Positions 671-64,000 of a stretch of DNA of 64,000 bases are shown here, piece by piece. The position numbers and the translations under genes are program-made. This DNA is from Fundidesulfovibrio magnetotacticus. Its GTDB lineage: Bacteria > Desulfobacterota > Desulfovibrionia > Desulfovibrionales > Desulfovibrionaceae. The notes under the pieces are model-generated. The model was given only the letters and a program-made list of their open reading frames with translations, had not been told where the DNA came from and did not search any database. Each line of letters begins with the position of its first letter. The stretch's first letter is position 1. The stretch is taken from assembly GCF_013019105.1 (NCBI RefSeq), contig NZ_BLTE01000001.1:372001-436000 (forward strand). Reading direction: 5' to 3'.

Positions 671-3600
671 CTAATCCTGAGTATACTCCATGCCGTAGCC
701 GCACCAGGGGCAGTAGTGGAAATCCTCCGCTCCCAGGGGTTCCTTGCAGCCGGGGCAGGCTTTGCCCACGGGGGCCAGCTCCACCAGGAGCTCGCCCTCC
801 TTCACGGGCACCATTTTCTTGTCCTCGAAGTAGTCGGCGTTCTTGAGCACGCGCTTCACCACGCCTTCCACCTGGGCGAGGACCGATTTCTCCTGCTTCA
901 TCACAGAGATGTTGAACATCGCCTGGCCGGGCTTCACGAAGTCGCCGGGGGAGACGTGCATCACCCAGAGGTCGCCGTTGCAGGGCGCGGCCACATGGAA
1001 GGGATTGTTGGGGTCGGCCATGGGCAGGTCCTGCGCGCCCTTGCCGCCCAGGGCCTCGGCCACCTTCACCTGATGGGAGAGGATCTCCGAGTCCAGCACG
1101 TAGCGCACCACGCTCATGCCCTGGTGGTCCGGGGCGGAGATGTCGAGCAGCGTGAAGGTGTGGGGCTTGCCGCGCGAGTCCTCGAAGAAGAGCTCCTGTC
1201 CGGGTTCCAGGCCTTCGAACCACACGTCCAGGGGCAGGCGGTTGGGGTCGCCGAACTTGGTGCGGAACTCGATGGTCTTGAGCGCGTCGCCGGGGTGGTT
1301 CAGATACATCACGAACTCTTCCGGGGTGGGCTCGCGCTGGAGGCGCTTGGCCAAGGCCTTCTCCTCGGAGGGCAGGTCCACGTCCTTGAGCGAGGCCAGG
1401 GGCGAGTCGGTGGTGCGCTGTTCGATGGCGGCGCGCCAGTCCGGCCCGAAGGCGGACTCGTACACCCAGTCCGGCGGCCAGCCCAGGGGCAGCTTGCCGT
1501 ACTTGCCCAGGAGCAGCTGACGGAAGGCGTCGTTGGCGTCGGCGTAGAGCATGAGCCGGTCGGCCTTGCAGGCCTGGGTGACGCACTCGTCGGGGTGCAT
1601 GCTGGTGGCGTCGAGCACCTCGAGCATGTCGCGCACGGCGCGCTCCCCGCCGCGCTTGTAGGCCCCGGTCACGGCCAGGAAGGCCGTGTTCCAGGTGATC
1701 TGGGAGCCTGGCGTGACGTCGTGGTAGCGCACGATGCGCCGCGTTCCGGCCAGGAACTTGAGCATGTAGGGCAGCAGATGGATGTAGCCCTGCTTGAGCG
1801 CGCCCTCCTGGCTGGAGCTGGTGGCCCCGCCGGGCATGCCGTGCTCCACCACGTCGTAGTCGATGCCCTGGAAGTATGGGGCGGTGTAACGGTCGTAGTA
1901 AGGCATGACCTGCTTGAGCACGAAGCCGCAGGTGCGGATCATCTCCTTGTTCAGGCTGGTCTTCAGGCCCAGTTCGTCTTCCAGGTAGGCCGCCGTGGAG
2001 AGCACCTCGCCCTGGCCGTACCAGCGCACGCTGGCGCCGATGGCCGTGTCCACGATGTGCGCCCCGGCCTTGGCCGCCGCGCCCACGGCGGGCACGAAGA
2101 GGCCGTCGGTGTAGTGTCGGTGGTAGTCAACAACCAGGTCGGGGTACTTGTCGCGGATGGCCGCCACGAGGGCCGAGACGAAGCGCGGCGGGCACATGCC
2201 GGCCATGTCCTTGAGCGCCAGGATGATGATCTTCGAGACCTTCTTCTTGGAGAGCCCGGCCACCTTGGCGCAGCACTCCAGGATGTCTTCGAGCACGCCC
2301 ATGTAGTGGTGCACGTCGAAGCCCTTGGCCCAGGAGAGGGAGATGGCGGGCTGGAAGACGTTGCCCTTGGAATTGAGCGCCACCTCCGCGAAGGGCTGCA
2401 TGTTCTCGATGTGGTTCAGGAAGTCGAAGCAGCGGATGATGTCGTAGTGTTCGCAGATCATCTCGCCGGTCAGGCGCATGAGGTTGCGCGGCTGGGGCTT
2501 GTAGCCCAGCACGTTGGTGGAGCGGATGAGTATCTGCTTGCAGGTTTTGGGGGCGAAGCAGTTCCACTGCTCCCCTTCGGTGAAGGGGTAGGTCATGTTG
2601 GCCATCATGGCCACGTGGAAGTGCGCGCCGCCGCCGTTCTCCAGGGAGAGGAAGCCGCAGTTGTCCAGGTAGGGGCCGATTAGGGCGTCCTCGGCCAGGC
2701 GGAAGCGGTTGCCGGAGTTGGACTGGGTGATGTCGCGGGTGGTGGTGTCCACGAAATGGACGAGCCCCGAGTCGCGGATCTGGTCCAGCAGGGCCTGGCG
2801 GTCGCCCCTTGGGTAGGGAGGCTTCCAGGCCTTGCGGTCGAACACGGGCATGGCCGGGGTGAAGCGGCCGAGGCGTTTGTCGGCGCGGCCCCGGTATTCG
2901 CCCAGCTGCACGTGGGGGTTGTAGCCCTTGGCGGAGATTTCGCTCACCAGCTTGGAGAGGCGCAGGGCCTCGGGCTCCACGTCGTGGTATTCCAGGAGCT
3001 CGGGGGCGGTGGCGATGAAGTTGGTGTCGTAGTCGCCCGAGCGGAAGCGCGGGTGGTTGATCACCTGGAGGTGGAAGGGGATGGTGGTTTTGGGCCCGCC
3101 CACGATGTATTCGCGCAGCGCCCTGTCCATGGTGCCCAGCACCTTCTCCCAGGAGCGGCCGTAGGCCATGAGCAGCGCGCCGGCCGAGTCGTACTGGGAG
3201 GGGAATTCGTAGCCCGCGGAGATGCAGGAGTCCAGGCGCACGCCGGGGCCGCCGGGGGAGATGTAGCGCGTGATGAGCCCGGCGTTGGGGGTGAAGCCCT
3301 GGCGCGGGTCCTCGCAGTTGATGCGCACCTGCACGCACCAGTTGAAGGGCTTGGCGTTGGTCTTGCTGTAGCGAAGCTTCCCGCCGAAGGCCACGGAGAT
3401 CTGTTCCTCCACCAGGTCGATGCCGTAGCGGCACTCGGTGATGCCGTGTTCCACCTGGAGGCGGGTGTTCACCTCGATGAGGTAGGGGGTGCCGTCGGGC
3501 TCCACCAGGAATTCCACGGTGGCCAGGGAGTAGTAGCCCACGTGCTTGACGAGCTTCTCGGCCCACTCCTTGAGCTGTTCGCGCAGCTCGGCGGTCATGC

Positions 3601-4375
3601 CCTTCCAGGGGGAGGGGGTGATCTCCACGAGCTTCTGGTGGTTGCGCTGCACGGTGCAGTCGCGCTCGTCCAGGGCCAGGACGTTGCCGTGCTTGTCGGC
3701 GATGACCTGGATCTCGATGTGGCGCACGCTGCGCAGGTATTTTTCCACATAGAGGCGCGGGTTGCCGAAGCTGGCCTGGGCCAGGGCCGAGGCCTTGGAG
3801 AAGGCCTCCTCCAGCTGCTTGGGCTCGTGCACCACGTAGATGCCGCGCCCGCCGCCGCCGCCCTCGGCCTTGAGCATGATGGGGAAGGTGATCTGGCTTG
3901 CGATCTCGCGGGCCTCGGGCACGCTCACCGCGCCCTCGGAGCCCGGCACCACGGGGATGCCCAGATTCTTGGCCACGTTGCGCACGGCCACCTTGTTGCC
4001 CAGGAGGTTCATGGCCTCGGAGGTGGGGCCGATGAACACGATGCCGGCCTCGGCGCACTTGGCGGGGAAGGTGTGGTCTTCGGAGGCGAAGCCCCAGCCG
4101 GGATGGATGGCCGCGATGCGCCGGGCCTTTGCCTCACGGATGATAAGGTCGATGTCCAGGTAGGCCCTGGGGTCTTCGCCCAGGAGGATCAGTTCGCGGG
4201 CGCCGGCCACGGAGGGGGAGGTCATGTCCACCTTGGTGGCGGTGAGCACGGGCACGGCGTGGAAGCGCTCGCGGATGGAGCGCAGCACCCTGCGGGCCGT
4301 GATGCCCCGGTTGGCGACAAGAATCTTCTTGCCCTGGATTTCCTTGAGAACGTCGTTGAAGGTCTTAACGCCCAT
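671..4375 (-). CDS. pyc: Pyruvate carboxylase with C-terminal zinc ribbon
   Basis: 1234-residue biotin enzyme making oxaloacetate from pyruvate, ATP and bicarbonate. Domains in order: biotin carboxylase/ATP-grasp (about 15-480; NRGITARRV, KAEGGGGGRGIYVV, EVNTRLQVEHG), carboxyltransferase TIM barrel (about 545-850; DTTTRDITQSNSGNRFR, the carbamyl-Lys motif ALKDMAGM, and metal motif DYHRHYTDG), a PYC/OADA linker region, then a biotinyl domain with acceptor Lys at about 1160 in VMKQEK rather than the usual AMKM. After the biotinyl domain there is an extra four-Cys ribbon (CPGC at 1207-1210, CPWC at 1222-1225). The start at MGVKTFNDVL was chosen because it begins just before the biotin carboxylase fold; the frame stays open upstream but reads as non-coding. 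The biotin ligase gene lies 40 bases upstream in the same direction. Divergent carboxyltransferase motifs leave a small chance of a related 2-oxoacid carboxylase. Confidence 0.93.
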   Translation of the reverse strand: MGVKTFNDVLKEIQGKKILVANRGITARRVLRSIRERFHAVPVLTATKVDMTSPSVAGARELILLGEDPRAYLDIDLIIREAKARRIAAIHPGWGFASEDHTFPAKCAEAGIVFIGPTSEAMNLLGNKVAVRNVAKNLGIPVVPGSEGAVSVPEAREIASQITFPIMLKAEGGGGGRGIYVVHEPKQLEEAFSKASALAQASFGNPRLYVEKYLRSVRHIEIQVIADKHGNVLALDERDCTVQRNHQKLVEITPSPWKGMTAELREQLKEWAEKLVKHVGYYSLATVEFLVEPDGTPYLIEVNTRLQVEHGITECRYGIDLVEEQISVAFGGKLRYSKTNAKPFNWCVQVRINCEDPRQGFTPNAGLITRYISPGGPGVRLDSCISAGYEFPSQYDSAGALLMAYGRSWEKVLGTMDRALREYIVGGPKTTIPFHLQVINHPRFRSGDYDTNFIATAPELLEYHDVEPEALRLSKLVSEISAKGYNPHVQLGEYRGRADKRLGRFTPAMPVFDRKAWKPPYPRGDRQALLDQIRDSGLVHFVDTTTRDITQSNSGNRFRLAEDALIGPYLDNCGFLSLENGGGAHFHVAMMANMTYPFTEGEQWNCFAPKTCKQILIRSTNVLGYKPQPRNLMRLTGEMICEHYDIIRCFDFLNHIENMQPFAEVALNSKGNVFQPAISLSWAKGFDVHHYMGVLEDILECCAKVAGLSKKKVSKIIILALKDMAGMCPPRFVSALVAAIRDKYPDLVVDYHRHYTDGLFVPAVGAAAKAGAHIVDTAIGASVRWYGQGEVLSTAAYLEDELGLKTSLNKEMIRTCGFVLKQVMPYYDRYTAPYFQGIDYDVVEHGMPGGATSSSQEGALKQGYIHLLPYMLKFLAGTRRIVRYHDVTPGSQITWNTAFLAVTGAYKRGGERAVRDMLEVLDATSMHPDECVTQACKADRLMLYADANDAFRQLLLGKYGKLPLGWPPDWVYESAFGPDWRAAIEQRTTDSPLASLKDVDLPSEEKALAKRLQREPTPEEFVMYLNHPGDALKTIEFRTKFGDPNRLPLDVWFEGLEPGQELFFEDSRGKPHTFTLLDISAPDHQGMSVVRYVLDSEILSHQVKVAEALGGKGAQDLPMADPNNPFHVAAPCNGDLWVMHVSPGDFVKPGQAMFNISVMKQEKSVLAQVEGVVKRVLKNADYFEDKKMVPVKEGELLVELAPVGKACPGCKEPLGAEDFHYCPWCGYGMEYTQD

Positions 4376-4415
4376 GGGAGATGTACCTAACCTGGATGCT
4401 TGGGCGGTCACCCGT

Positions 4416-5357
4416 TCAGGCCCGCCAGATGCTGCCGGAGGTGAGAAGCCGTTCGCCCGCCCCGTCGGCGGGCTTGACCCGAAGCGCCCCGTCCGGGGCC
4501 AGGCCCAGGATGCGTCCCGTCCAGGGCGGCTCGGAGCCGTCGCGCACGAGAACCTCCTGGCCAAGCCAGCAAAGACGCGAGGACGTACGCGCCGCAGCCT
4601 GTCCGGGGCTTCCTTGGGAAAGTTCGTCAAGGTAGCCTGTTTTCACAAAATCCACAAGAGCGGACCACAGGGACACGGGCGTGGACGCAACCCCCAGCCC
4701 GGCCAGGGTCCCGGCGGGAACGGCATGGCCGTTGCGCAAAAACGACGGGTCCGGCGCGGCGTGCAGGTTCACCCCGATTCCGGCCAGCGTGACGCCCTTG
4801 CGTTCCTCCACGAGCATGCCGCAGACCTTGAGGCCGCCGCAGATCACGTCGTTGGGCCATTTCAGGCAGGCCTCCACGCCCAGCCCCGCGAGGAATTCGC
4901 ACGCCAGACGCCCCAGGATCAGGGGCGTGAGCGTGTCGAAGGCCTGGGGCACGGCAGGGAGCACCAGCGCGCCGTAGACGTTGCCGGGCGGGGAGTCCCA
5001 CGGACGGCGCAGCTGCCCGCGCCCGGACCACTGCGACACGGCAAGCACCGAGTCCCAGGGGGTGAGCAGTCCGTTTTCGGCCAGCGGGCGCGCCACGTCC
5101 AACGACGAGGAACACCGCCCGCAGACCACCACTGTCCCCTCGCAGCGCGCCCGCGAAACCCACCACGATTCCGCGTCGCACGTCGTGCACCAGGGGACCG
5201 ATTCCTCTTGCCAAGGCGCAAGTCCGCGCGCATCCTCGGCCCAGGCGGGGTGGCTGGCTGCCAGGCGCTCTGGATCGAGAGGACAGGCGAGATCCTCGCG
5301 TCCCTTGGCCCACAACAGAACGCCCGGCCCCGGAACGCGGGGACCTTGACATTGCAT
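4416..5357 (-). CDS. birA: Biotin--[acetyl-CoA-carboxylase/pyruvate carboxylase] ligase
   Basis: 313-residue biotin protein ligase that would biotinylate the neighbouring carboxylase through biotinyl-5'-AMP. The catalytic domain shows the adenylate-binding loop SGRGQLRRPW, the KWPNDV motif with the biotin-contacting Lys, and GLKVCGMLVEE, followed by the small C-terminal SH3-like domain (GRILGLAPDGALRV). The first ~100 residues lack a recognisable winged helix; instead there is a Cys cluster (CTTC, then a Cys, then CGRC) that looks like a zinc-binding module. This suggests a ligase that is not a DNA-binding repressor of the E. coli BirA type. The start at 5357 gives MQCQGPRV, only 18 bases from the divergent CCA-enzyme start, so each promoter must lie inside the other gene's 5' region. 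pyc is immediately downstream. Confidence 0.9.
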   Translation of the reverse strand: MQCQGPRVPGPGVLLWAKGREDLACPLDPERLAASHPAWAEDARGLAPWQEESVPWCTTCDAESWWVSRARCEGTVVVCGRCSSSLDVARPLAENGLLTPWDSVLAVSQWSGRGQLRRPWDSPPGNVYGALVLPAVPQAFDTLTPLILGRLACEFLAGLGVEACLKWPNDVICGGLKVCGMLVEERKGVTLAGIGVNLHAAPDPSFLRNGHAVPAGTLAGLGVASTPVSLWSALVDFVKTGYLDELSQGSPGQAAARTSSRLCWLGQEVLVRDGSEPPWTGRILGLAPDGALRVKPADGAGERLLTSGSIWRA

Positions 5358-8987: not shown

Positions 8988-10646
8988 TCACCACCCTGCC
9001 TGGTCCACCCCGTAGAAGTCGCCGTGGCCGGGGAAGACCATGGCCCGGCGTCCCTTGCGGGCCTGTTGGGCCATTGTCTCGCGCATGAGCGCGCGCAGCA
9101 TGGCCATCTCGCGGTGGAAGAGCGCCGAGTCGGCGTTGGTGTTGGTCAGGAGCGACTTGTGCACCGAGAGGGCCTCGCGCTCGCGCGGGGAGAGGCTGGC
9201 CGGGTCCAGCAGGTAGTCTCCCGTGAAGAGCACGCCCTGCTCGGGGCCGTAATAGAACACCTGCCCCGCCACGTGGCCGCCCAGGCTCTCCAGCGCCAGA
9301 AGCTCCAGGTCCGCCAGGCGCACGCGCCCCATTACCCGCAGCCCTCCCGCCTCGGCCGGAGCGCCCTCCCCCGCCGCCTCGAAGGGCTCGATGCGCGCGG
9401 GCGGCGTCAACCCCGTGAGACGCCCCACGAGCCGCGTGAAGGAGCGGTTGATGGCCGCCAGGGCGCTGCGCCCCAGGGTGCGGTCCTCCAGGGCGAAGAC
9501 GCGCTCGCACTCGGGGTGCATGAACACCCTGGCCCCGTAGCGCTCCTGGAGGCGGCCCGCCCAGCCCGCGTGGTCGGCGTCGGGGTGGGTGGCCAGCACG
9601 GCGTCCACGCGCGCGGGGTCGAAGCCGTGGGCCGCCATCCAGGCCATCACGTCCTCGAAGAAGATGCCGAAGTTGGTGTCCAGGAAGGCCAGGCCGCCGG
9701 GGTGGCGCAGGAGGTAGCTGTTGGCGCCCTCCGGGCAGGCCAGCATGTAGAGCGATACGAGGGGCGTGAGCGGCACGGGGCCGGTGAGGCGCAGCGTGAA
9801 GTTGGGCCCCGTGGCCCCCACGGCCATGGCCGCCAGGCGCAGGATGTCCGCGAAGGTCTCCGAGGCGGCCAGGGCCTCGCCCGAGGCCCCCGAGGCCCGG
9901 CGGAACTCGGCCAGGGCCTGGCGCATCTCCCGCGAGGTGTTGAAAAGCTCCTCCAGCCCGCTCATGCGCTCGGGCGGAAGCACCGAACGCAGCTTGAAGA
10001 GGAAGGCCTCCACCTCGGAGAAGCCCAGGGCCGCGTCCACGTCGGCGTCGTCGCCGCCGCGCCAGAGCACGTGGTAGTGGTAGCCCGCCCGGGTCATCTC
10101 GCCCAGGAGTTCCGAGACGCGCCCCGCCCCGCGCAGCGACACCGAGGCCTCGGCCATCTCCGGCTCCTGCCCGGAGTCGTAGCGCAGGTGGATCACGTTG
10201 GCCTCCAGCGCCCGAAAGCGTTCGGCCAGCTCGGCCAGGGTTCCCGGCCGGTTGCGCAGGGCCACCTTGAAGCAGAGCACGCCGTCCAGGTCCGTGATGA
10301 GCGCGGGCTCGGCCTCCCGGTCCGCCGGGGCGTCCAGGTAGCCCCGGGCCGCCAGGCGGTCCAGGAGCTTGCCCGCGCGCTGGGCCTGGGGCAGGGACAC
10401 GGCCAGGTCCACACGGTGGGGGTGTTCGCCCCGGTCGTAGACCAGGCGTTCGATGTTGGCCCCCAGCGTCGAGGCCAGGCTGGCCAGATCGGCCAGCGCG
10501 CCCGGCCTGTCGGGCAGGTTCACGGCCAGCTCCGCCCGCCAGCGGCCCTCGCGGCGCGCCAGGAAGGAGTCCCCGGCCCGTGCCTCGGACTGGACGGGAT
10601 TGCACGCGTCCCCAGCCTGCGCTAACATGTTCTTTTGCACTTCCAT
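8988..10646 (-). CDS. ACT-ACT-metallo-beta-lactamase fold fusion protein
   Basis: 552 residues. Two ACT-like regulatory domains at the N-terminus (about 30-105, ELAVNLPDRPGALADLASL; about 115-195, FKVALRNRPGTLAELAERF) bind small ligands such as amino acids in other proteins. A helical linker follows. The C-terminal half is a metallo-beta-lactamase-fold hydrolase with the metal motif H354-P-D356-A-D358-H359, the variant with Asp in place of the second His that is also seen in ComEC-like proteins; later metal ligands are plausible in GGHVAGQVFYY, LFTGDYLL and FPGHGDF. The start at MEVQKN (GAGGG just upstream) is preferred; MLAQAG seven codons on is an alternative. It is divergent from the thioesterase gene. 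Substrate unknown. Confidence 0.78.
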   Translation of the reverse strand: MEVQKNMLAQAGDACNPVQSEARAGDSFLARREGRWRAELAVNLPDRPGALADLASLASTLGANIERLVYDRGEHPHRVDLAVSLPQAQRAGKLLDRLAARGYLDAPADREAEPALITDLDGVLCFKVALRNRPGTLAELAERFRALEANVIHLRYDSGQEPEMAEASVSLRGAGRVSELLGEMTRAGYHYHVLWRGGDDADVDAALGFSEVEAFLFKLRSVLPPERMSGLEELFNTSREMRQALAEFRRASGASGEALAASETFADILRLAAMAVGATGPNFTLRLTGPVPLTPLVSLYMLACPEGANSYLLRHPGGLAFLDTNFGIFFEDVMAWMAAHGFDPARVDAVLATHPDADHAGWAGRLQERYGARVFMHPECERVFALEDRTLGRSALAAINRSFTRLVGRLTGLTPPARIEPFEAAGEGAPAEAGGLRVMGRVRLADLELLALESLGGHVAGQVFYYGPEQGVLFTGDYLLDPASLSPREREALSVHKSLLTNTNADSALFHREMAMLRALMRETMAQQARKGRRAMVFPGHGDFYGVDQAGW

Positions 10647-10743
10647 GACCCTCGCTCGGCTTCCCCGATGCCCTCGACGGGCGTCCCGGACGGGGGCAGA
10701 CAGCGCCCCCGTCGCGCACGGAGGCCGCACCGGAGCACTCCCA

Positions 10744-11235
10744 ATGGACGATCGGCCCGCGCTTGGCAAGCCCGTCTCGGCCAGCCGCACGGAACTCTCC
10801 CTGGCCATGCTGCCCCAGGACGCCAACCCCTACGGCTCCATCCACGGCGGCGTGATCCTGAAAAACATGGACGCCGCCGCCGCCATGGCCGCCATGCGCC
10901 ATTGCCGGGGCAACGCCGTGACCGTGGCCATGGACGGCGTGAGCTTCCTGGCTCCCTCCCGCGTGGGCGAACTGGTCACCTTCCGGGCCCAGGTGAACCA
11001 CGTGGGCCGCACCTCCATGGAAGTGGGCGTACGCGTGGAGTCCGAGAACCTCTTCACCGGCGAGGTGCGCCACACGGCCTCGGCCTACCTGACTTTCGTG
11101 GCCCTGGACGTGTCCGGCAAGCCCTCCCCGGCCCCGCCCCTCGTGCTGGAGACCGACGACGAGCGCCGCCGCTTCGCCCAGGCCGAAGAACGACGCCGCA
11201 CAAGACGCTGCTGCGTGCTCCACCAGGGAGCCTGA
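10744..11235 (+). CDS. Hotdog-fold acyl-CoA thioesterase (YciA/BACH-like)
   Basis: 163 residues with the acyl-CoA thioesterase signature DANPYGSIHGGVILKNMD, in which the Asp/Asn and the Gly-rich loop build the active site at the dimer interface, followed by VTVAMDGVSFLAPSRVGE and TSMEVGVRVESE typical of the hotdog sheet. Enzymes of this class hydrolyse short- to long-chain acyl-CoA in the cytosol. The C-terminal ~35 residues are a charged tail. GGAG lies 8 bases upstream of the ATG. The divergent neighbour on the left starts at 10646, leaving a 97-base shared promoter region. Confidence 0.87.
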   Translation: MDDRPALGKPVSASRTELSLAMLPQDANPYGSIHGGVILKNMDAAAAMAAMRHCRGNAVTVAMDGVSFLAPSRVGELVTFRAQVNHVGRTSMEVGVRVESENLFTGEVRHTASAYLTFVALDVSGKPSPAPPLVLETDDERRRFAQAEERRRTRRCCVLHQGA

Positions 11236-11357
11236 CGGCCTGAGGGGCACCTCTCCGAAGGCGGGACCCGCCCGCCTTGCGGGCTGCCAGTGTCGCAGCC
11301 TCACAATCCGTCAACACGAATTGCCAAGGCAAGCATCGTAACTCGTTGATTTTAATT

Positions 11358-59038: not shown

Positions 59039-60202
59039 ATGAAGAAACTTCGGATCGCCGTCGCTCTCGGCACGCGCCCGGAGGTTGTGAAACTGGCCCC
59101 GGTGGTCAAGGTCCTGCGTTCGCAGCCCGAAACCTTCGAGGTGTCCGTGCTTTCCACCGGACAGCACCGCCAGATGCTCGATCAGGCCCTGGCCCCCTTC
59201 GGGCTGGAGGTGCAGACAGACCTGCGCCTCATGCGCGAGAACCAGACCCTGCCGGACCTCACGGCCCTGGCGCTCACGGCCGTCACGGGCGCGCTGGCCT
59301 CGCTGCGCCCGGACATGCTCCTGGTGCAGGGTGACACCACCACGGTGCTGGCGGCCTCCCTGGCGGCCTTCTACGCCCGCGTGCCCGTGGGCCACGTGGA
59401 AGCGGGGCTGCGCAGCCACGACATGGCCAACCCCTTCCCCGAAGAGGCCAACCGCAGGCTCACCAGCGTGCTGGCGGAACTGCACTTCGCCCCCACGCCA
59501 GGGGCCGGGGCCGAACTCCTGCGCGAGGGCGTCGCGGCAGACCGGGTGGTGATCACGGGCAACACGGTGGTGGACGCCCTGCTGGAGCTGTCCGCCAGGC
59601 CTTTCAACCCGGTCGGGACTCCCCTGGAGGGCCTGCCCCTGGAGGGCAAGCGCGTGGCGCTGGTCACGTCGCACCGCAGGGAATCCTTCGACGGCGGCAT
59701 AGAGCGCATCTGCCTGGCCCTGGCCGAACTGGCCCGCGCCTTTCCCGATCTGGCCGTGGTCTACCCCCTGCACCTCAACCCCAACGTGCGCCGCGCCGCA
59801 CGGAGCATTCTGGAAGGCTGCCCCGGGGTGCACCTCACGGAGCCCCTGGACTACCCTTGCATCGTGCACCTGATGCGCCGCGCAGAGCTCATCCTCACGG
59901 ACTCCGGCGGCATCCAGGAGGAGGCCCCGACCTTCGACACCCCGGTGCTCGTGCTGCGCACGGTCACGGAGCGCCCCGAAGCCAGCCAGCGCGGCCAGGC
60001 CGTGCTGGTGGGCACGGACAAGGACCTCATCGTGGCCACGGCCTCGCGCCTGCTCACCGACCCCGCCGCCCGCGCGGCCATGACCGGCAAGGGCAACCCC
60101 TACGGCGACGGCCGCGCCGCCGGGCGCATCGCCCGGGCCATCCAGGGCTGGGCCGGGGGGCAGACGCCCCCGCTGCCGCCGGAGCTTCAGTTCGTTCCGT
60201 AG
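59039..60202 (+). CDS. wecB: UDP-N-acetylglucosamine 2-epimerase (non-hydrolysing)
   Basis: 387 residues. Makes UDP-ManNAc from UDP-GlcNAc. Motifs: ALGTRPEVVKLAPV, STGQHRQMLD, LLVQGDTTTVLA, HVEAGLRSHDMANPFPEEANRRL, VTSHRRESFD, PLHLNPNVRR, and LTDSGGIQEEAPTFDTPVLVLRTVTERPE, with catalytic Asp/Glu/His positions conserved. The ribosome-binding site (AAAGGG) is distant. No other ManNAc-using genes (wecC, wecA) are adjacent; the next gene is a membrane glycosyltransferase only 10 bases downstream, so the epimerase probably feeds it. In E. coli this enzyme is also known as NfrC from its role in phage N4 adsorption. Confidence 0.94.
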   Translation: MKKLRIAVALGTRPEVVKLAPVVKVLRSQPETFEVSVLSTGQHRQMLDQALAPFGLEVQTDLRLMRENQTLPDLTALALTAVTGALASLRPDMLLVQGDTTTVLAASLAAFYARVPVGHVEAGLRSHDMANPFPEEANRRLTSVLAELHFAPTPGAGAELLREGVAADRVVITGNTVVDALLELSARPFNPVGTPLEGLPLEGKRVALVTSHRRESFDGGIERICLALAELARAFPDLAVVYPLHLNPNVRRAARSILEGCPGVHLTEPLDYPCIVHLMRRAELILTDSGGIQEEAPTFDTPVLVLRTVTERPEASQRGQAVLVGTDKDLIVATASRLLTDPAARAAMTGKGNPYGDGRAAGRIARAIQGWAGGQTPPLPPELQFVP

Positions 60203-60212
60203 CGAGTGCGCC

Positions 60213-62483
60213 ATGTCGACGTTCGATCTCTCCATCCCCTACGCCCTGCTCGGGCTCAAGCTGTTGCTCATCCTGCTCTCGCTGGTGTTCTTCGTCAGCG
60301 GCATCGACGAGCTCTTCTTCGATTGCGTCTACCTGGTGCGCCGCATCTACAGGAAGCTTTTCATCCTGCCCAAATACGAACCCCTTACGGAAGAGAAGCT
60401 CCTGGCCGTCCCGGAAAAGCTCATCGCGGTGATGATCCCCTGCTGGGACGAGTCTGCGGTGATCCGCAAGATGCTCACCAACACCATCCGCAGCGTCAAC
60501 TACTCCAACTATTACATTTTCGTGGGCACCTACCCCAACGATCAGGCCACCCAGCGCGAGGTGGAGCTCGCCCGGGAAAGCTTCGACAACGTCCAGCGCA
60601 TCGTCTGCCCCAAGGACGGCCCCACCAACAAGGCGGACTGCCTCAACTGGGTTTACGAGGGCATCAAGGTCTTCGAGAAGGACCACGGCCTCACCTTCGA
60701 GATTTTCGTGATGAACGACTCGGAGGACATCGTGCACCCGCTCTACCTCAAGCTCTTCAACTACCTCATCCCGGCCAAGGACATGGTGCAGCTGCCCGTG
60801 TTCCCCCTGCCCGGCGTCTGGTGGAACCTCACGCGCGGGCACTACCTGGACGAGTTCGCCGAGAACCACTCCAAGGACATGACCGTGCGTGAGGTCCTGA
60901 GCCGCAGCGTGCCATCGGCGGGCGTGGGCAGCGCCTACAGCCGCCGGTCCCTGGACACCCTGGCCGCCGAGACGAACCATCAGCTCTTCAACATCAATTC
61001 CCTCACCGAAGACTACGATTTCGGCATGCGCCTGGGCAAACACGGCTTCAAGCAGATCTTCGTGCGCCACGCCATCCGCCGCACCGTGAAGAAGCGCAGG
61101 CTCTTCGGCGGCATGCGCGAGGTGGAAACCCGCGAATACGTGGTGATCCGGGAGCTTTTCCCCGGAACGCTCAGCACGGCCGTCCGCCAGAAGTCGCGCT
61201 GGGTCATCGGCATCGCGCTCCAGGGCTGGGCCTCCATCGGCTGGCAGGGGGGGTTCTGGTCCTGCTACATGCTCGCGCGCGACCGCAAGTCGCTTCTCAC
61301 CAACCAGGTGAACATGCTGGGCAACATGCTGGTGCCCGTCATCGGCGGCTTCTGGCTCTGGAAGACGCTCAACCCCGACGGCTACCGCTATCCGCCGCTG
61401 GTGGTGGAGAACACCCCCCTCTGGACGCTGCTGATCATCAACATGTTCTTCCTGGTCTGGCGCATGCTCTGGCGCGCCGTGTACACCGCGCGCATCTACG
61501 GCCCCCTGCAGGGCCTGCTCTCCGTGCCCCGGCTCTTCTGGGGCAACCTCATCAATTTTTTCGCCACCCTGCGCGCCATCCGCATGTATGTGCGCTACCT
61601 CATCACCGGCAAGATCATCGCCTGGGACAAGACCGCCCACGTCTACCCCAGCGAGGACGAACTGCGCGCCTACCGCCGACGCCTGGGCGACCTGCTCCTG
61701 GACAAGCGCTACGTCACCGTGCAGCAGCTCGACGAGGCCCTGGAACTGCAGAAATCCACCGGACAGTCCCTGGGCGAGGTGCTCCTGGCCAGGGGGCTCA
61801 TCGGGGAGGACGACCTGGTGCAGACCCTCGGTCTGCAGTTCCGCCTGAACACCTCCCGGATCGACCCCTATGCCGTGCCCGAGGACGTGCTGGAGCTCAT
61901 CCCCAGGGAGGTCGCCCAGGCCAACGACATCTTCCCCCTGGGCCTGGAACCAGCGGGGGCGCTGCGCATCGCGGTGCTCACCCCCCTGGCCGGGCCGGAG
62001 CTGCGCCGCCTGGAAGAGGCCCTGGGACGCCCCTTGGAGATGGTGCTCGCCTCCAAGAGCGACATGGCCTTCGCCCTGCGACGCGGCTACGAAAGGCTCG
62101 ATGCCCCGGACCCCGCCCAGGCCACGCCCCTGGGCGAACGCCTGGTCAAGGGCTGCGTGATCACCCCGGACCAGCTCGACGACGCCCTGCGCACCCAGCG
62201 GCGCGGCTACTCCCGCCTGGGCGACATCCTCGTTCTGGAAGGTTCGCTCCCTGCCGGGAAGCTCAACAAGGCCGTGGCGGAGTTCTACAAGGGAACGGGC
62301 GCTCACGGCCGTTTCGGGGACTTCCTGGTGGAGAAAGGCTACGTCACGCAGGCCCAGCTGGACGCGGCCCTGCGCATCCAGGCCAAGAGAGCACGCTTCC
62401 TGGGCGACATCCTCTCCGACATGGGCGTCCCCGCCGGGGACATCGACGCTGCCCTCAACGGCAAGGGGGCGTCCCGGTGCTGA
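60213..62483 (+). CDS. NfrB-like membrane glycosyltransferase with MshEN-type C-terminal array
   Basis: 756 residues. One N-terminal membrane helix (about 12-30), a GT2 catalytic domain (about 65-335) with VMIPCWDES, the metal/nucleotide motif MNDSEDIVHP (near 169), TEDYDFGMRLGKHGF (base region, near 266), and the processive-synthase motif QKSRW (near 326-330), then membrane helices about 360-385 and 405-430. The C-terminal ~270 residues contain repeated MshEN/GspE-N modules: RLGDLLLDKRYVTVQQLDEAL (near 490) with its partner SLGEVLLARGLI, a second near 639 (PLGERLVKGCVITPDQLDDAL, RLGDILVLEG), and a third near 698 (RFGDFLVEKGYVTQAQLDAAL, FLGDILSDMG). MshEN modules bind c-di-GMP. The architecture is that of E. 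coli NfrB. Spacing to wecB is 10 bases. Confidence 0.85.
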   Translation: MSTFDLSIPYALLGLKLLLILLSLVFFVSGIDELFFDCVYLVRRIYRKLFILPKYEPLTEEKLLAVPEKLIAVMIPCWDESAVIRKMLTNTIRSVNYSNYYIFVGTYPNDQATQREVELARESFDNVQRIVCPKDGPTNKADCLNWVYEGIKVFEKDHGLTFEIFVMNDSEDIVHPLYLKLFNYLIPAKDMVQLPVFPLPGVWWNLTRGHYLDEFAENHSKDMTVREVLSRSVPSAGVGSAYSRRSLDTLAAETNHQLFNINSLTEDYDFGMRLGKHGFKQIFVRHAIRRTVKKRRLFGGMREVETREYVVIRELFPGTLSTAVRQKSRWVIGIALQGWASIGWQGGFWSCYMLARDRKSLLTNQVNMLGNMLVPVIGGFWLWKTLNPDGYRYPPLVVENTPLWTLLIINMFFLVWRMLWRAVYTARIYGPLQGLLSVPRLFWGNLINFFATLRAIRMYVRYLITGKIIAWDKTAHVYPSEDELRAYRRRLGDLLLDKRYVTVQQLDEALELQKSTGQSLGEVLLARGLIGEDDLVQTLGLQFRLNTSRIDPYAVPEDVLELIPREVAQANDIFPLGLEPAGALRIAVLTPLAGPELRRLEEALGRPLEMVLASKSDMAFALRRGYERLDAPDPAQATPLGERLVKGCVITPDQLDDALRTQRRGYSRLGDILVLEGSLPAGKLNKAVAEFYKGTGAHGRFGDFLVEKGYVTQAQLDAALRIQAKRARFLGDILSDMGVPAGDIDAALNGKGASRC

Positions 62484-64000
62484 ACCCGGCCCGATCCTCC
62501 CCCGGCCGCCTCCGACGGGGCCTGACGGTCCTGGCGGCCCTCTTCGCGCTGGCCTCCTGCCCGGCGTGGCGGGGCATGGCGCTGGCGCAGAGCGTGCCGG
62601 ACTCCGTGACCCTGGAGGGCAACTGGTTCCAGCGCGAGCTCACGCGGCTCAAATCCTTCCCGCACCTGGACAAGGCGTACCGCCTGCTCGCCCAAGGCAA
62701 CCGGAGCGAGGCCGTCAGGGAATTCCAGAGCTATCTGGCCCTGGTTCCCGGCGACACCAAGGTGCAGGAACTCCTGGCGGGCCTGCTGGCCGAGGAAGGC
62801 CGCGCCGAGGAGGCTCTGCGCCAGGCCGAGGCCGTGCTGGCCGAGCGCCCCGGCCTGCCGCGCATGCGCCTGATCCGGGCCAACCTCCTGGTCCGCCTGG
62901 GCCGCGACGACGAGGCCGCCAAAGACTTCGAACAAGCTCTCGCGGATGGCGGCCAGGACCGGGAGCTTGCCCTCCAAGCCGCCTCGGGTCTGGCCGGAAT
63001 CCGCCTGCGTCAGGGCCGTCCCGCCGAGGCCCTGGCCCTGTTGGAGGCCCTGGACAAGCCCGTTCCCGTCACCTCGCCCGTGGCAACGCTCCTGCGCGCC
63101 CAGGCCCTGGTGGCGCTGGGTCGTCCGGTCGAGGCCCAGGCCCTGCTGGCAAAGTCCCTGGAGGCTGCCGCCACGCCCCAGGACAAGGCCGAAGTGCTGG
63201 ACCTCTGGGCCAAGGCCCTCGAAGACCAGGGGGACCTGGAGGGCGCGCGCGAGCGCCTGCTGGAGAGCCTGCGCACGGCCCCGGGCAGGGCCGCCGCCCT
63301 GCGCGCCCTGGCCGAGAACGCCATCCGGCGCAAGGCCCCGGAGGAGGCCGTGGAATACGCGCGGCAAGCCGAGGCGGCAGAGGCCTCCCCGGCCGCGCGG
63401 GAGCTCGCGGCCAACGCCCTGCTCCTGGCGGGACGCCCCCGCGAGGCCGCCCAACTGCTCGAGAAGATGGCCGCCGAAACCGCCGCCCAAGTGGAGCGCG
63501 ATCGCCTGACCCTGCGCGCCGCCAACGCACTCGCCCTTGCCGGCGACGACGCGGCTGCCGCCGAAGCCTACGCGCGCGCCGCACAGAGCGGCCGCGAACC
63601 CGGCGCTCTGGAAGGGCTGGCTGCGGCCTTCGAGCGCCTGGGCCGCTTCCAGGAAGCCGCCGACGCCCTCCAGAAGGCCCTGGACGCCTTCCCCTCCGGC
63701 GAGCGTCTGCTGCGCCTGGCCGGGCTGCGCAACAAGGCGGGAGACCCCACGGCCGCCGCACGGCTGGTGGAGCGGGCCCTTGCCGGGGAGCTGGCCCAGG
63801 AGGCGCGGGCCATGGCCTTGGAGGAACTGGGTCTCCTTCAGGAAGAAGCCGGGAAGAACGCCGAGGCGGCGGAGGCATGGAAACAGGCCCTCGCCTCGCG
63901 ACCGGGCGATCCCACGCTGCTCGCCCGGCTGGCTGCCGTCAGCCAGCGCATGGGGGACATCCGGGCCGCCCTGGGCTACGCCCGGGCCGCGCGCGACGCC
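62477..64000 (+). CDS. Exported TPR protein, NfrA/PgaA-like (5' part, runs off the window)
   Basis: 508 codons are present with no stop before base 64000. The GTG start overlaps the nfrB-like stop (GTGCTGA) and has AGGGGG upstream. A signal peptide (residues ~14-38, LTVLAALFALASCPAWRGMALAQS) precedes a nearly continuous array of about 13 tetratricopeptide-type repeats (for example LDKAYRLLAQGNRSEAVREF, LRRAGR-like RPAEALALLEAL units). Proteins of this build, such as NfrA and PgaA, end in an outer-membrane beta barrel that exports the polysaccharide made by the adjacent synthase. The barrel would lie beyond the window, so the assignment rests on position and architecture. Confidence 0.75.
   Translation, partial: MLNPARSSPGRLRRGLTVLAALFALASCPAWRGMALAQSVPDSVTLEGNWFQRELTRLKSFPHLDKAYRLLAQGNRSEAVREFQSYLALVPGDTKVQELLAGLLAEEGRAEEALRQAEAVLAERPGLPRMRLIRANLLVRLGRDDEAAKDFEQALADGGQDRELALQAASGLAGIRLRQGRPAEALALLEALDKPVPVTSPVATLLRAQALVALGRPVEAQALLAKSLEAAATPQDKAEVLDLWAKALEDQGDLEGARERLLESLRTAPGRAAALRALAENAIRRKAPEEAVEYARQAEAAEASPAARELAANALLLAGRPREAAQLLEKMAAETAAQVERDRLTLRAANALALAGDDAAAAEAYARAAQSGREPGALEGLAAAFERLGRFQEAADALQKALDAFPSGERLLRLAGLRNKAGDPTAAARLVERALAGELAQEARAMALEELGLLQEEAGKNAEAAEAWKQALASRPGDPTLLARLAAVSQRMGDIRAALGYARAARDA

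Follow-up and report, generated by a model that had tools for sequence, protein, structure and literature searches.

The window, the whole 64,000-nucleotide stretch of Fundidesulfovibrio magnetotacticus DNA analyzed in this study, ends in the following genes and gene parts, among them a synthase with c-di-GMP motifs at its C-terminus:

59039..60202, + strand: wecB-like UDP-GlcNAc 2-epimerase gene, upstream of nfrB (PF02350, E = 7.5e-111; TIGR00236, E = 6.4e-127)
60213..62483, + strand: nfrB-like gene for a 756-aa GT2 synthase that carries c-di-GMP motifs at its C-terminus (NF012033)
60423..61211, + strand: GT2 catalytic region, aa 71-333 (PF13641, E = 3e-33)
62477..64000, + strand: start of a TPR gene, 1015 aa, which extends beyond the window (TPR matches)

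In a profile search, the open reading frame at 60213-62483 (+) scored 675.6 bits against NF012033, above the cut-off of 537, and 644.1 bits against the NfrB equivalog model NF008411, below its curated cut-off of 1170. The GT2 core contains DxD-like, TED and QxxRW motifs (DSED from aa 169, TEDYD from aa 265 and RQKSRW from aa 325), an MshEN domain lies C-terminal to this core, and nfrA, wecB and ybcH-family genes are all linked to nfrB at the locus. The 756-aa protein is an NfrB-type glycosyltransferase in the broad sense. The wecB-like gene likely serves UDP-ManNAc supply, and the 1015-aa TPR protein encoded downstream of nfrB probably represents the periplasmic portion of an NfrA divided in two. 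The TPR gene is followed by a gene for a 462-aa protein with an NfrA_C domain (PF13283), which starts inside an ATGA overlap of 4 bases (L069:478-3525 and 3522-4910, that is, from window position 62477 onward and beyond). A DUF4434 gene lies downstream of the NfrA_C gene, past the window end; E. coli ybcH, the 3' neighbour of nfrA in that organism, also encodes a DUF4434 protein. Because wecB, nfrB, the TPR and NfrA_C genes and a DUF4434 gene like that of E. coli ybcH adjoin, the gene set observed here (wecB, nfrB, a two-part nfrA and a ybcH-family gene) is an Nfr-type exopolysaccharide operon. Fundidesulfovibrio agrisoli likewise has a split nfrA (L038:6789-9884 and 9881-11245, 4-base overlap), and in both genomes a separate TPR/NfrA_C part follows a long TPR protein, which in L038 also has an AMIN domain. 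F. agrisoli was the closest named relative found (73% identity), which we take to point to the order Desulfovibrionales. The 55 GGDEF matches listed for the genome all lie outside the window and the 14 kb that follow it, so that no diguanylate cyclase was found near nfrB within this range.

The published MshEN motif is 24 residues long and occurs as two copies 5 residues apart (PMC5013675, accessible part). According to the accessible parts of the papers on MshE, PilF GSPII-B and PilF GSPII-A, c-di-GMP is contacted at motif positions 1, 2, 3, 17, 21 and 24, in the numbering from 1 to 24 that was set up for this analysis. Six c-di-GMP half-motifs, which form three pairs (at aa 490, 639 and 700), can be read directly in the last 277 residues of the 756-aa protein; they are given below with their residues at positions 1, 2, 3, 10, 17, 21 and 24 in brackets:

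61680..61751, + strand: half-motif 1a, aa 490-513, from the homologue alignment (R L G R L L Q)
61767..61838, + strand: half-motif 1b, aa 519-542 (S L G G L L Q); 1a and 1b are the sole fully preserved pair (NF053729, 60.7 bits)
61839..62108, + strand: MshEN_C subdomain of unit 1, about aa 543-632 (PF05157 at aa 549-628; model against 5htl, Z 16.6, 138 residues)
62127..62198, + strand: half-motif 2a, aa 639-662 (P L G C L L Q); Gln24 present, Cys at position 10
62214..62285, + strand: half-motif 2b, aa 668-691 (R L G G L V F); Val21, Phe replacing Gln24 (pair 2, NF053729, 47.7 bits)
62310..62381, + strand: half-motif 3a, aa 700-723 (R F G G L L Q); Phe at position 2, remaining named positions intact
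62397..62468, + strand: half-motif 3b, aa 729-752 as aligned (F L G G D N G); 1 residue short, without Gln24 (pair 3, NF053729)

The spacers measure 5 residues inside each pair (1a-1b, 2a-2b, 3a-3b) and 8 residues between 2b and 3a. NF053729 is a curated model of the 53-residue motif pair with a cut-off of 38 bits. In a search of the whole 4.46 Mb genome, the three pairs reached 60.7, 47.7 and 47.9 bits, the last covering profile positions 1-40; all exceed the cut-off and together they account for 3 of the 6 matches with E ≤ 0.001. Pairs 2 and 3, which make up the tail of the protein, were also recognized by a profile of the homologues' unit 1 from which the window's row had been removed (40.2 and 37.5 bits, compared with at most 8.1 bits when the sequence beyond aa 545 was shuffled 5000 times). 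Pfam PF05157 has a single match in the protein, at aa 549-628, and MshEN_C is absent from units 2 and 3, as just 8 residues lie between 2b and 3a and 4 follow the aligned 3b.

For the comparison with homologues, 41 open frames were extracted; L038, whose match statistics are identical to those of L011, was removed as redundant, and 40 were aligned. The tallies cover 23 same-phylum rows (the window's included), 4 E. coli-type rows and 5 other Pseudomonadota rows, the Pseudomonadota being represented by E. coli and plasmid-borne genes only; the eight aligned fragments or tail-less sequences (L039, L042, L043, L044, L063, L065, L067 and L068) stand outside the tallies. Unit 1 has R1, L2, G3, L17, L21 and Q24 in both of its 24-residue motifs, which are separated by 5 residues, except for Ser1 in 1b. 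The five residues L2, G3, L17, L21 and Q24 are all present in 1b of 23/23 same-phylum rows, and at least four of them in 1a of 23/23. In units 2 and 3, the key residues are incomplete (Pro1 in 2a; Val21 and Phe24 in 2b; a short 3b without Gln24). G3 is found in all six half-motifs of the 756-aa protein. Among the tail half-motifs, neither adjacent nor nested pairing brings two Gln24 together; the one combination that would do so is 2a with 3a. As aligned, Gln24 is missing from 2b and from 3b in all 23 same-phylum rows. Position 24 of 2b is aromatic (Phe or Tyr) in 19/23 same-phylum and 7/9 Pseudomonadota rows, and this conservation indicates a kept substitution and not plain decay.

A non-binding PilF domain gave measurable binding only once Gln24 had been introduced in both motifs and Arg1 in motif II, and an engineered PilF construct with Ser lost binding (PMC12002112, accessible part); half-motif 1b of the 756-aa protein starts with this residue. 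As 2b and 3b lack Gln24, this requirement in PilF does not lead us to predict two or three equal sites. E. coli NfrB has Arg at position 24 of 1a, and its residues 414-745 bind c-di-GMP with a Kd of 1 µM (PMC8669469, accessible part). Since this C-terminus binds despite Arg24, the absence of Gln24 is no proof of non-binding, and since the construct also held the tail, the measurement does not by itself assign the binding to unit 1. A Gly at position 10 was considered as a mark of activity and rejected, because it is absent from 1a in 23/23 same-phylum rows and in E. coli, whose C-terminus binds; in the accessible part of the MshEN paper (PMC5013675), it is not among the named ligand contacts.

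An earlier note on this DNA had proposed three motif pairs at the C-terminus of one glycosyltransferase, and this count holds, with half-motifs at aa 490, 519, 639, 668, 700 and 729. The first copy, which the note doubted, has L2, G3, L17, L21 and Q24 in both halves and is the only one followed by MshEN_C. Its Arg at position 10, where the note expected Gly, is the usual residue of 1a (Arg in 21 of the 23 same-phylum rows, His in 2). That the other copies keep a Gly at this position is true of 3a and wrong for 2a, where position 10 is Cys and a Gly stands one place earlier. One degenerate and two active sites, as the note suggested, do not fit pairs 2 and 3, whose second halves lack Gln24 (Phe in 2b, none in 3b). 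The reading as three MshEN modules is correct in so far as three pairs exceed the NF053729 cut-off, but only pair 1 is complete and pairs 2 and 3 are without MshEN_C. The profile search recommended by the note gives a result that differs by model, one match with PF05157 (aa 549-628) versus three with NF053729.

NfrB-like genes were uncommon in the genomes surveyed, occurring in 20/348 genomes of the order, in 8/395 of the phylum sample and in 4 of the 7 genomes listed for the genus; among 200 genomes of the class to which the Sulfuricurvum genome belongs, that genome was the single positive. Three NF053729 stretches were observed in all 13 same-phylum homologues tested (22 were available besides the window's), and three matches above the cut-off also in the three other same-genus genomes with the gene. 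Elsewhere, one stretch was found in L057 and L061, two in L058, L059 and L064, and three in L060 and E. coli, whose NfrB yielded two from the full protein and three from the C-terminal part. Three pairs are a trait of the sampled same-phylum NfrB clade and not peculiar to the 756-aa protein. Gly3 is kept in the 23 same-phylum rows in 1a (22), 1b (23), 2a (15), 2b (22), 3a (21) and 3b (14), and in the nine Pseudomonadota rows in 3a (9), 2b (7), 2a (0) and 3b (0). A 2b-3a profile scored 20.8-34.7 bits in eight of the nine Pseudomonadota tails and 11.6 bits in the ninth (best shuffle 8.9), the match in one of the nine extending over half the length only. With 2a-2b and 3a-3b profiles, these tails gave mostly one-half matches, E. 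coli 3a-3b being the exception. As the 2b-3a profile exceeds the shuffles in 9/9 Pseudomonadota tails, no part of the tail is retained more widely than this inner pair, and 2a and 3b would either have been added in the window's clade or been lost elsewhere. The C-termini also form a natural length series: L043 and L067 have no motif pair, L044 and L063 have the unit-1 pair without MshEN_C, and L039, L065 and L068 (homologues or fragments) end after MshEN_C, L068 beside a Tn3-family transposase gene.

An AlphaFold2 model of aa 480-756, built from three sequences (pLDDT 76.6, pTM 0.55), matched MshE with c-di-GMP (5htl; Z 16.6, 2.8 Å, 138 residues) and PilF GSPII-B (8pfa; Z 15.6, 2.5 Å, 135 residues), in both cases over unit 1. 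This fold match was observed directly, and in the model unit 1 (pair 1) appears as the only complete MshEN domain of the 756-aa protein. A shallow tail-only model from two sequences (pLDDT 77.1, pTM 0.48) matched PilF GSPII-B residues 161-218 (Z 10.2, 1.4 Å, 58 residues, model residues 1-119) and MshE residues 7-65 (Z 9.0, 2.6 Å, 59 residues, model residues 34-95), at Z values that, by the tool's own warning for helical proteins (below about 13), are possibly of little meaning. Crystal structures of PilF GSPII-B with bound c-di-GMP superposed on this shallow model at 1.2-1.5 Å over 54-58 residues (Z 7.8-10.2), and ordinary helical proteins came next at Z 3.6 and lower. The alignments of the tail were judged from their end points only. 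As 58 aligned residues span 119, the GSPII-B match most simply joins the tail ends, 2a and 3b, and the MshE match would be 2b with 3a; the two matches hint weakly at a nested pairing in the model.

The tail as two ordinary neighbouring MshEN pairs is not the sole reading, because 2b-3a is the surviving pair in most Pseudomonadota tails. The spacers (5 residues in 2a-2b and 3a-3b versus 8 in 2b-3a) favour the ordinary pairing. In the E. coli tail, the 3a-3b profile (24.0 bits, positions 2-43) exceeds the 2b-3a profile (20.8), and in the L059 tail the two tie (22.8 and 23.1 bits). Gly3 of 2a and 3b is kept in both in 13 of 31 rows, in neither in 17 and in one of the two in 1 row. On supported branches, this co-loss reduces to 3 independent pairs, of which 2 point in the same direction and 1 is without difference, and with just these 3 pairs it gives no significant indication of nesting. 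A more speculative view, which we consider doubtful, is that the MshEN half-motif is a repeat without fixed neighbour pairing and that the tail nests, with an outer 2a-3b site over 2b-3a that was lost or never present in the E. coli branch, so that number and affinity of c-di-GMP sites would change by gain or loss of half-motifs. The structure modelling suggested by the earlier note bore out unit 1 (Z 16.6 against MshE) and gave a weaker result for the tail (Z 7.8-10.2, shallow model). The comparison of module number that the note proposed gave three NF053729 matches in 13/13 same-phylum homologues and an eroded version in E. coli, and the module boundary that the note drew within the tail is crossed by the surviving 2b-3a pair of most Pseudomonadota tails, which straddles pairs 2 and 3.

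Across six homologue pairs, dN/dS of the tail was 0.13, 0.45, 0.18, 0.21, 0.35 and 0.40, the values being rough in the two pairs with a tail dS of about 1; the same pairs gave 0.05-0.16 for the GT region and 0.04-0.29 for unit 1. The tail is constrained, less so than the core.

We consider it probable (roughly 0.6) that the C-terminus combines one canonical c-di-GMP switch, unit 1, with an MshEN_N-like tail, degenerate in part, that serves packing, docking or tuning. By analogy, the NfrB-like protein would be a glycosyltransferase of the inner membrane whose product is probably a ManNAc-based glycan polymer, with UDP-ManNAc from the adjacent epimerase as the presumed substrate. Binding of c-di-GMP to the canonical unit 1 (aa 490-632), behind the catalytic region, would switch the enzyme on, and the glycan would be exported through the TPR and NfrA_C proteins. 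In E. coli, N4 plating is reduced or abolished when the catalytic region or unit 1 of NfrB is mutated (accessible parts of PMC8669469 and PMC8669472), and by analogy we infer both enzyme activity and c-di-GMP activation of the 756-aa protein. The last 124 residues contain four MshEN half-motifs without MshEN_C, which probably fold as MshEN_N-like helix pairs. Because neither adjacent nor nested pairing puts Gln24 on both sides, the tail is predicted to bind c-di-GMP weakly or not at all, and its predicted role is most likely packing, docking or tuning.

The main rival places two c-di-GMP sites on the protein, unit 1 and a second, weaker tail site of other affinity, which would create a two-threshold switch as in Thermus PilF. 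Such an arrangement is possible, if rather unlikely: 2a and 3a retain Gln24, G3 and both leucines, G3 is present in all six half-motifs, and the tail model superposes on c-di-GMP-bound PilF GSPII-B, but only the pairing of 2a with 3a would bring Gln24 to both sides, the tail is without MshEN_C and a shared fold shows no ligand. Three working sites with graded or cooperative control, as would be suggested by the three matches above the curated cut-off in the 756-aa protein and in three other same-genus genomes, are very improbable given that 3b is 1 residue short, that 2b and 3b as aligned are without Gln24 in every same-phylum row, and that, of these 23 rows, 8 have no Gly3 in 2a and 9 have none in 3b. 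Alternatively, the tail could be what remains of an old duplication that is decaying and has no function today. Its dN/dS exceeds that of the GT region in 6/6 pairs, 2a and 3b are without Gly3 in 9/9 Pseudomonadota rows, and five homologues or fragments stop within or just after unit 1 (L039, L044, L063, L065 and L068), one of them beside a transposase gene. However, dN/dS of the tail is well below 1 in all six pairs, the 2b-3a profile exceeds the best shuffle in all nine Pseudomonadota tails (in one over half the length), and the aromatic residue in 2b is conserved, which makes a mere leftover distinctly unlikely. One switch in unit 1 with an accessory tail is the reading we prefer.

Further MshEN-type motifs occur elsewhere in the same genome. 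Open frames on contig C6 (L070-L078 and L003) carry about four MshEN half-motifs each, mostly with a 29-residue period; their starts are not fixed, in most of them further sequence without a clear family follows the half-motifs, and the one frame searched against Pfam reached no family cut-off. On contig C9, L006 resembles a CheA histidine kinase by eye and has one c-di-GMP motif pair (NF053729, 42.2 bits).

The receptor of phage N4 is a product of NfrB, which serves as a model for how c-di-GMP controls a polysaccharide synthase locally. The two 2021 NfrB papers (PMC8669469, PMC8669472), in their accessible parts, present the C-terminus as a single MshEN domain, which one of the two papers places next to 'a domain of unknown function', and the C-terminal mutants they name lie in unit 1. 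The accessible parts of PMC8669469, PMC8669472, PMC5013675, PMC11731258, PMC12002112, PMC9765702 and PMC12943098 describe no second MshEN unit in NfrB. A tail of further half-motifs, reduced in Pseudomonadota, would add a further part to the NfrB family, and the natural series of no pair, one pair, one plus a tail pair, and three pairs offers a way to ask what extra MshEN units do.

Among known systems, E. coli NfrB of the NfrBA-YbcH system (N4 glycan receptor) shares with the 756-aa protein the GT2 active-site residues at D169, D267 and W330, an MshEN unit at the same place, the nfrA and DUF4434 partners and traces of the same tail. It differs in that its 2a is hardly recognisable and its 2b and 3b are without Gly3, and nfrA is one gene there versus two here, where wecB lies beside nfrB. 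Plasmid-borne variants from Caballeronia, Paraburkholderia, Nitratireductor and Pseudomonas (L060-L062, L064 and L066) have the GT core, unit 1 and 2b-3a, whereas 2a and 3b are absent. A BcsB or 'cellulose synthase' gene stands beside nfrB in L061, L062, L064 and the tail-less Variovorax L063, in the plasmid loci L061-L064 between wecB and nfrB (L060 and L066 are unannotated), which suggests a cellulose-type partner in this Pseudomonadota branch. The N-terminal domain of Vibrio cholerae MshE (MshEN) has the fold and the motif pair with 5-residue spacer of unit 1, but as a single pair on an ATPase. That several MshEN-type domains can occur on one protein is already known from Thermus thermophilus PilF, the best match of the 756-aa protein's C-terminus among solved sequences: as far as the accessible parts of the PilF papers go, GSPII-A, -B and -C are three tandem MshEN-type domains of unequal motif quality, as here, but on a pilus ATPase, in an N-terminal array and with domains of 137-173 residues in place of the bare 53-residue tail pairs.
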